Assembly (NCBI GenBank): GCA_024228555.1
Contig: JAAETI010000277.1
Span: 1 to 64,000, forward strand
Reading direction: 5' to 3'
Source: a bacterium
Lineage (GTDB): Bacteria; Actinomycetota; Acidimicrobiia; Spongiisociales; UBA5794
DNA: 64,000 nucleotides
Shown: positions 2,317-2,423 of the stretch, one piece after another
Layout of the letters: each line of letters opens with the position of its first letter
How positions within the stretch are numbered: position 1 is the first letter of the stretch
Position numbers and translations under genes: made by a program
The notes under the pieces: model-generated
The model's input: the letters and a program-made list of their open reading frames with translations, nothing else
Database searches by the model: none
Told to the model about the DNA's origin: nothing

Positions 2317-2423
2317 GGTTCTGGCTCACGGTCAGTCCCTCGGATGCCAATCGGGAGGCCCCTTACTCCGCCCGCTTCCATTTTGGCGCCAGCGCTCCGA
2401 GGGACTGACCATGGTTCAGAACC
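2317..2423 (+). promoter_or_regulatory. Long hairpin enclosing the rsmH start codon (candidate cis-regulatory RNA)
   Basis: Positions 2330-2344 pair perfectly over 15 bp with 2396-2410, and 2317-2323 pair over 7 bp with 2417-2423. The six bases between the two helices on the 3' side (2411-2416) begin with the rsmH ATG and can still form A-U, C-G, U-G and G-U pairs with 2324-2329, leaving two mismatches in 28 positions. The enclosed 51 bases include a smaller GCCAA/TTGGC pairing (2346-2350 with 2384-2388). The stem would bury the start codon and the Shine-Dalgarno position. A motif named mraW RNA is known upstream of this gene in some Actinobacteria; I cannot test whether this is the same. Confidence 0.7.

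Follow-up and report, generated by a model that had tools for sequence, protein, structure and literature searches.

The window, which is the whole 64,000-nucleotide stretch of DNA analyzed here, carries near its start the genes mraZ and rsmH, and a large structured element occupies the region between them (Table 1). 3' of rsmH, a small ORF without a Pfam match stands at the position of ftsL and is followed by a gene encoding a penicillin-binding protein. Just upstream of mraZ, two genes for PemK/MazF-like toxins (Pfam PF02452) lie close together, at 301-639 on the reverse strand and 1258-1587 on the forward strand, and the small ORF region beside each may encode an antitoxin. Repeated TGGG-type motifs at about 1683-1815, before mraZ, resemble MraZ-binding boxes.

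Table 1. Features of the mraZ-rsmH region, in window coordinates.
Feature	Start	End	Strand	Basis and remarks
mraZ	1853	2290	+	ORF; Pfam MraZ PF02381, E = 1.8e-35; stop TGA 2288-2290, 26 nt before the hairpin
Upstream ORF (putative)	2287	2688	+	ORF list; start in the ATGA that overlaps the mraZ stop, frame open across the hairpin, out-of-frame end in rsmH
P1 main stem, 5' strand	2317	2350	+	Fold, sequence, covariation; outer 2317-2328, inner 2330-2344, continuing 2345-2350
P2 hairpin, 5' strand	2354	2359	+	Fold; conserved in own-order alignment A1
Apical loop	2360	2373	+	Alignments A1, A2, A3; near-invariant core ACUCCGCCCGC = 2365-2375, hexamer CCGCCC = 2368-2373
P2 hairpin, 3' strand	2374	2379	+	Fold
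Inner helix, 3' strand (partner 2345-2350)	2383	2388	+	Fold; G-C to A-U double changes
Asymmetric bulge, CAGCGC region	2389	2395	+	Fold; hairpin P3 stands here in other orders
Main stem, 3' strand, with Shine-Dalgarno-like sequence and start codon	2396	2423	+	Fold, sequence
Shine-Dalgarno-like GAGGG	2399	2403	+	7 nt before AUG, within the 3' strand of the stem; GGGGGG in most relatives
rsmH (16S rRNA m4C1402 methyltransferase)	2411	3355	+	Pfam Methyltransf_5 (MraW), E = 1.3e-98; start codon 2411-2413, position kept in relatives

The element extends from 2317 to 2423. The pairing claimed for it in an earlier sequence-only reading is borne out by the letters themselves: positions 2330-2344 (GGTCAGTCCCTCGGA) are the exact reverse complement of 2396-2410 (TCCGAGGGACTGACC), and GGTTCTG at 2317-2323 pairs perfectly with CAGAACC at 2417-2423. 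Four of the six intervening positions also pair as proposed (G2324-U2416, U2326-G2414, C2327-G2413 and A2328-U2412), leaving C2325/U2415 and C2329/A2411 unpaired. The predicted fold adds two helices absent from that reading, an inner continuation of the main stem (2345-2350 with 2383-2388) and a second hairpin (2354-2359 with 2374-2379) that encloses the loop at 2360-2373. The leader as a whole (2291-2430) has a minimum free energy of -62.7 kcal/mol compared with -42.7 +/- 4.0 kcal/mol for shuffled sequences (z = -5.03), and none of 200 shuffles reaches equal stability. No U-run follows position 2423, and a terminator scan finds no intrinsic terminator or attenuator at the hairpin. Nor does the element behave as a dispersed palindromic repeat of the REP or MITE type; there is a single full copy in the genome, and its location is fixed in relatives.

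The rsmH AUG (2411-2413) is hidden in the 3' strand of the hairpin, which both the sequence and the fold confirm. It had also been proposed that no accessible Shine-Dalgarno sequence is left. The inaccessibility stands, but the sequence is sequestered rather than missing, as a GAGGG within the stem (2399-2403). Both the start codon and the Shine-Dalgarno sequence lie within the stem throughout the window's own order and in most of the other orders read, and most lineages read place an AUG or GUG within the 3' strand, preceded by a Shine-Dalgarno-like G-run. An internal promoter that starts transcription within the hairpin would speak against regulation of this kind; no sigma-70-like promoter was found between 1600 and 2500, which is a weak test in this organism. 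On these structural grounds the element very likely regulates translation. The sequence-only reading extended this control to the whole downstream dcw operon, which is not supported here; the direct target would be the translation of rsmH, and ftsL and later genes could be affected only by way of coupling or mRNA decay.

We located rsmH in 60 related genomes. Throughout the window's own order the same hairpin lies immediately 5' of the gene, and the compensating base changes that the sequence-only reading had named as a check are abundant both there and in other orders. The RNAalifold structure for the own order contains 35 pairs, 16 of which show compensatory double changes. When cells are counted on the named structure, 96.9% are paired, with 57 double-change cells compared with 16 in shuffles. 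In the other orders 25 of 38 pairs show double changes and 91.7% of cells are paired. Covariation as high was reached by none of 500 shuffles for either set, and pairing falls to 30-52% in controls where the partner is slid by one to three columns. Most other orders have a three-way junction that includes an additional hairpin, P3, whose loop RGAGAMAW (GAGACAU type) is strongly conserved (e.g., L172:1501-1648 and L175:1501-1646). The P3 hairpin is lost in the window's own order.

The main stem offers about 25 bp of nearly perfect duplex, and it might serve mainly to set the stability of the rsmH mRNA, as a site of RNase III cleavage or decay. However, such a site requires neither a near-invariant loop nor an AUG within the stem, and we consider this explanation quite improbable.

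A covariance model built from own-order sequences (R1; threshold E <= 0.01) matches 166 of 295 genomes of the class, and several class genomes without an R1 match carry the element on inspection. A second model (R2), built from 13 sequences that all come from other orders, finds the element in the window with the exact bounds 2317-2423 (E = 2.8e-7) and matches 183 of the 246 Acidimicrobiia genomes searched. Of 296 Actinomycetota genomes sampled, it matches class members alone, and about 260 genomes from elsewhere in the phylum give no match. The divergent matches read in other orders all lie between mraZ and rsmH. A scan of public genomes with the loop sequence returned matches nearly all labelled Acidimicrobiia or unclassified Actinomycetota, and rsmH upstream regions of another Actinomycetota class (L254-L276) contain no such loop. 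An R1 match from elsewhere in the phylum (L177) was rejected, being a perfect palindrome with neither mraZ nor rsmH nearby. Some families within the class are without the element (L195-L197, L199, L203, L204, L211-L214), and in most of these genomes mraZ and rsmH overlap or almost abut. The element is a real, class-wide leader RNA family of Acidimicrobiia, usually present in one copy per genome and so far undescribed. It provides a new structured RNA family for a bacterial class whose regulation is little studied.

The stems vary freely while still pairing, and nearly every lineage has the loop ACUCCGCCCGC without change. The hexamer CCGCCC is present in 80 of 84 distinct loop cores, a proportion that overstates its constancy because some loci were fetched or picked by patterns containing the loop; two of the four misses are wrong-site picks by our script. 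Among loci fetched by the rsmH protein alone (L010-L039), 29 cover the site of the element; 28 of them have CUCCGCCCGC, and L030 does not. The hexamer is broken in two of the elements read (CCGCCU in L030 and CCACCC in L207), the leading A of the core is replaced by another base in L037, L168, L206, L208 and L209, and the joint is shortened in L157 and L161. The AT-rich 1-Mb genomes (L149, L150) have ACUCCGCCC followed by AA. A near-invariant loop carried on freely varying stems is the pattern expected of protein-binding leaders. A pseudoknot or kissing interaction of the loop (CUCC or CGCU) with the bulge or P3 was considered and rejected, as the partners, judged by eye, are inconsistently kept.

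As a candidate second copy or decoy elsewhere in the genome we rejected a 21-nt match on contig C55 of the window's genome (G000:C55), which is antisense to the start of an atpZ/I-like gene. This site (G000:C55:15481-15501; L009:982-1002) is perfectly complementary to the rsmH leader loop over its 21 nt and lies in the N-terminal coding region of the ATP-synthase gene, possibly by chance. One further species of the same genus has a 16-nt version of it.

The loop core resembles positions 1396-1406 of 16S rRNA, which we take to be universally ACACCGCCCGU (the site of the universal 1392R primer). Nine of the 11 positions are identical and two differ, with seven contiguous matches (CCGCCCG), and 3.9% of loop shuffles do as well against this segment (p about 0.04). 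Taken alone, this resemblance is suggestive only. C2371 of the loop would be the equivalent of C1402, the 16S residue that RsmH is established to methylate at N4 (PMC5053481).

We propose that 2317-2423 is a cis-regulatory rsmH leader whose loop is bound by RsmH, which holds its own translation closed, and we give this proposal about an even chance. The nascent mRNA would fold by default into the long stem, burying the rsmH Shine-Dalgarno sequence and start codon and leaving rsmH poorly translated. The conserved apical loop would act as a recognition site, most likely for RsmH, given the likeness between the loop and the enzyme's substrate, 16S 1396-1406. RsmH in excess of its 30S substrate would bind the loop and clamp the stem, which would shut down production of more enzyme. 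While newly made 30S subunits keep RsmH occupied, the stem could open, probably helped by a ribosome arriving from mraZ via the upstream ORF. We infer the translational repression, the identity of the binding factor and which way the feedback runs, and naming RsmH as the regulator is our best single guess, with chances that are even at most. The proposal offers a testable reason for the leading place of rsmH in the division and wall cluster, as the level of RsmH may follow the supply of immature 30S subunits.

Several points count against RsmH as the reader of the loop. The resemblance to 16S rRNA is weak by itself, the hexamer is broken in L030 and L207, and several families of the class are without the element. 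Substrate mimicry does not account for the second conserved loop, RGAGAMAW, found outside the own order. METTL15, the mitochondrial homologue of RsmH, showed no sequence specificity when it bound RNA in vitro (PMC10828496). In addition, the main stem is very stable, so its opening needs an active step.

The same translational lock could instead be read by a ribosomal protein or assembly factor of the 1400 region, by RsmI, or by a small ligand such as S-adenosylmethionine (SAM) or SAH. The presence of two separate conserved loops in most orders suggests a specific binder. However, the gene preceded is always rsmH, whose substrate the loop resembles, and the conserved bases lie in apical loops rather than a junction pocket, probably in contrast to most riboswitches. 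We regard these other readers as unlikely.

The upstream ORF bears directly on how the stem might be opened. In the window's own family, where membership is certain for G-numbered genomes and assigned from sequence for named records, all 31 loci in which a start codon and the mraZ stop overlap keep one frame through the hairpin that stays open past the rsmH AUG. The overlap is ATGA in 23 of these loci, TGATG in six and TAATG in two, and every spacing, between 114 and 318 nt, is divisible by 3. Such conservation of frame is the signature of a translated ORF, making this a good candidate for one. The ORF and its frame are not kept in other families. The ORF ends out of frame within rsmH, so a ribosome translating it would neither reinitiate at rsmH nor produce a fusion with RsmH. 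It could let ribosomes from mraZ work on the hairpin, and this could be the main opening mechanism. Readthrough of a whole frame, or a hop, from mraZ to rsmH was rejected, as the frame is closed in relatives L023, L029 and L034. A conserved leader peptide was likewise rejected, with loop indels shifting the frame between lineages. In the AT-rich 1-Mb relatives (L149:944-1063, L150:937-1056) mraZ ends within the hairpin, its stop codon being part of the 5' strand, and its translation alone should therefore disturb the stem.

A further reading is that an overlapping protein-coding ORF explains the conservation, with the RNA structure as a by-product. Frames through the hairpin are often open, and the own family shows a constraint on frame. 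However, one- and two-base indels occur in the loop between lineages, UGA is present in some loops (L034 type), and the stem carries compensatory double changes. The indels and the covariation already contradict a coding origin, which we hold to be extremely improbable.

More serious is a switch driven by the ribosome, in which a ribosome from mraZ restarts at the ATGA of the upstream ORF, meets the hairpin and, by occupying the 5' strand or stalling at the loop, frees the rsmH Shine-Dalgarno sequence and AUG; rsmH may then sense ribosome methylation too. The frame kept open past the AUG in 31 of 31 own-family loci despite many different spacings, and the mraZ stop inside the 5' strand in the 1-Mb relatives, both speak for it. 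In addition, m4C1402 is reported to aid start codons trapped in stems (B. subtilis cmpA; PMC13317604). However, the ORF and its frame are not kept outside the family whereas the loop is, and a switch alone does not explain a near-invariant loop. We judge it improbable as the explanation of the element, yet given the frame-kept ORF, ribosome-driven opening must be considered a serious part of, or rival to, feedback by RsmH.

The sequence-only reading had suggested that the element is either a form of the mraW RNA motif or something new. The mraW motif (RF01746) is described from Actinomycetales (Weinberg et al. 2010, PMC2864571). A covariance search with RF01746 at its gathering score of 50 bits, in which the positive control C. 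glutamicum was detected, matches neither the window nor the element in relatives. With E up to 10, a search of Rfam 15 returned nothing but chance miRNA matches on the opposite strand. At the level of the RNA family, the second suggestion was therefore right. RF01746 matches 69 of 148 genomes of another Actinomycetota class (E <= 1e-6), whereas the present element, sought with R2 in 296 Actinomycetota genomes, is confined to the window's class.

The two RNAs are alike in position, as both are structured RNAs between mraZ and mraW/rsmH, and both have a long stem with a conserved C-rich apical loop (CACUUCCCCGG in the mraW motif, ACUCCGCCCGC here). However, the CACUUCCCCGG loop is closed by CUGGCG/CGCCAG, a feature not seen here when about 30 RF01746 loci are compared with alignments A1 and A3. 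Additionally, the rsmH start lies about 6 to more than 200 nt downstream of the mraW motif, whereas here it is inside the stem. The element and the mraW motif are different RNAs in the same place. By eye, ACnYCSCC or something close to it is common to the mraW loop, the loop described here and the RsmH site of 16S rRNA. We found no ligand of the mraW motif in the literature searched, and the loop pattern shared with the RsmH site suggests a function for it. More tentatively, and with less than even confidence, we suggest that RsmH binds, and perhaps methylates, a decoy of its 16S target in its own mRNA, that small-subunit maturation is thereby coupled to gene expression at the start of the division cluster, and that the mraW motif of Actinomycetes is an independently shaped or distantly related solution.

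Start codons trapped in a stem-loop have a precedent in B. subtilis cmpA, whose efficient translation needs MraW-modified ribosomes according to a recent preprint (PMC13317604). The trapped start codon and the tie to C1402 methylation are shared with rsmH. However, cmpA is another gene from another phylum, and no conserved C-rich loop is reported in the passages of the preprint consulted. If C1402 methylation aids such starts, as stated there, it would tie the rsmH lock to RsmH activity in another way.

Ribosomal-protein leaders that mimic rRNA also have conserved recognition loops and hide the ribosome-binding site of a gene for an rRNA-binding protein. They differ in that the target gene here encodes a methyltransferase and the binder is putative. 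The site proposed for sgm is reportedly the hexamer CCGCCC, common to the sgm leader and the C1400 region of 16S rRNA, and the leader described here carries this hexamer, the sequence of 16S 1399-1404. Both sgm and kgmB are translationally autoregulated 16S rRNA methylases, as stated in PMC2791848. They are antibiotic-resistance genes, whereas rsmH encodes a housekeeping enzyme preceded by a large covarying RNA structure, with autoregulation suggested by analogy. A search of the literature turned up no account of RsmH regulating itself. Like them, rsmH encodes a methylase of the 16S 1400 region (Pfam Methyltransf_5, E = 1.3e-98).
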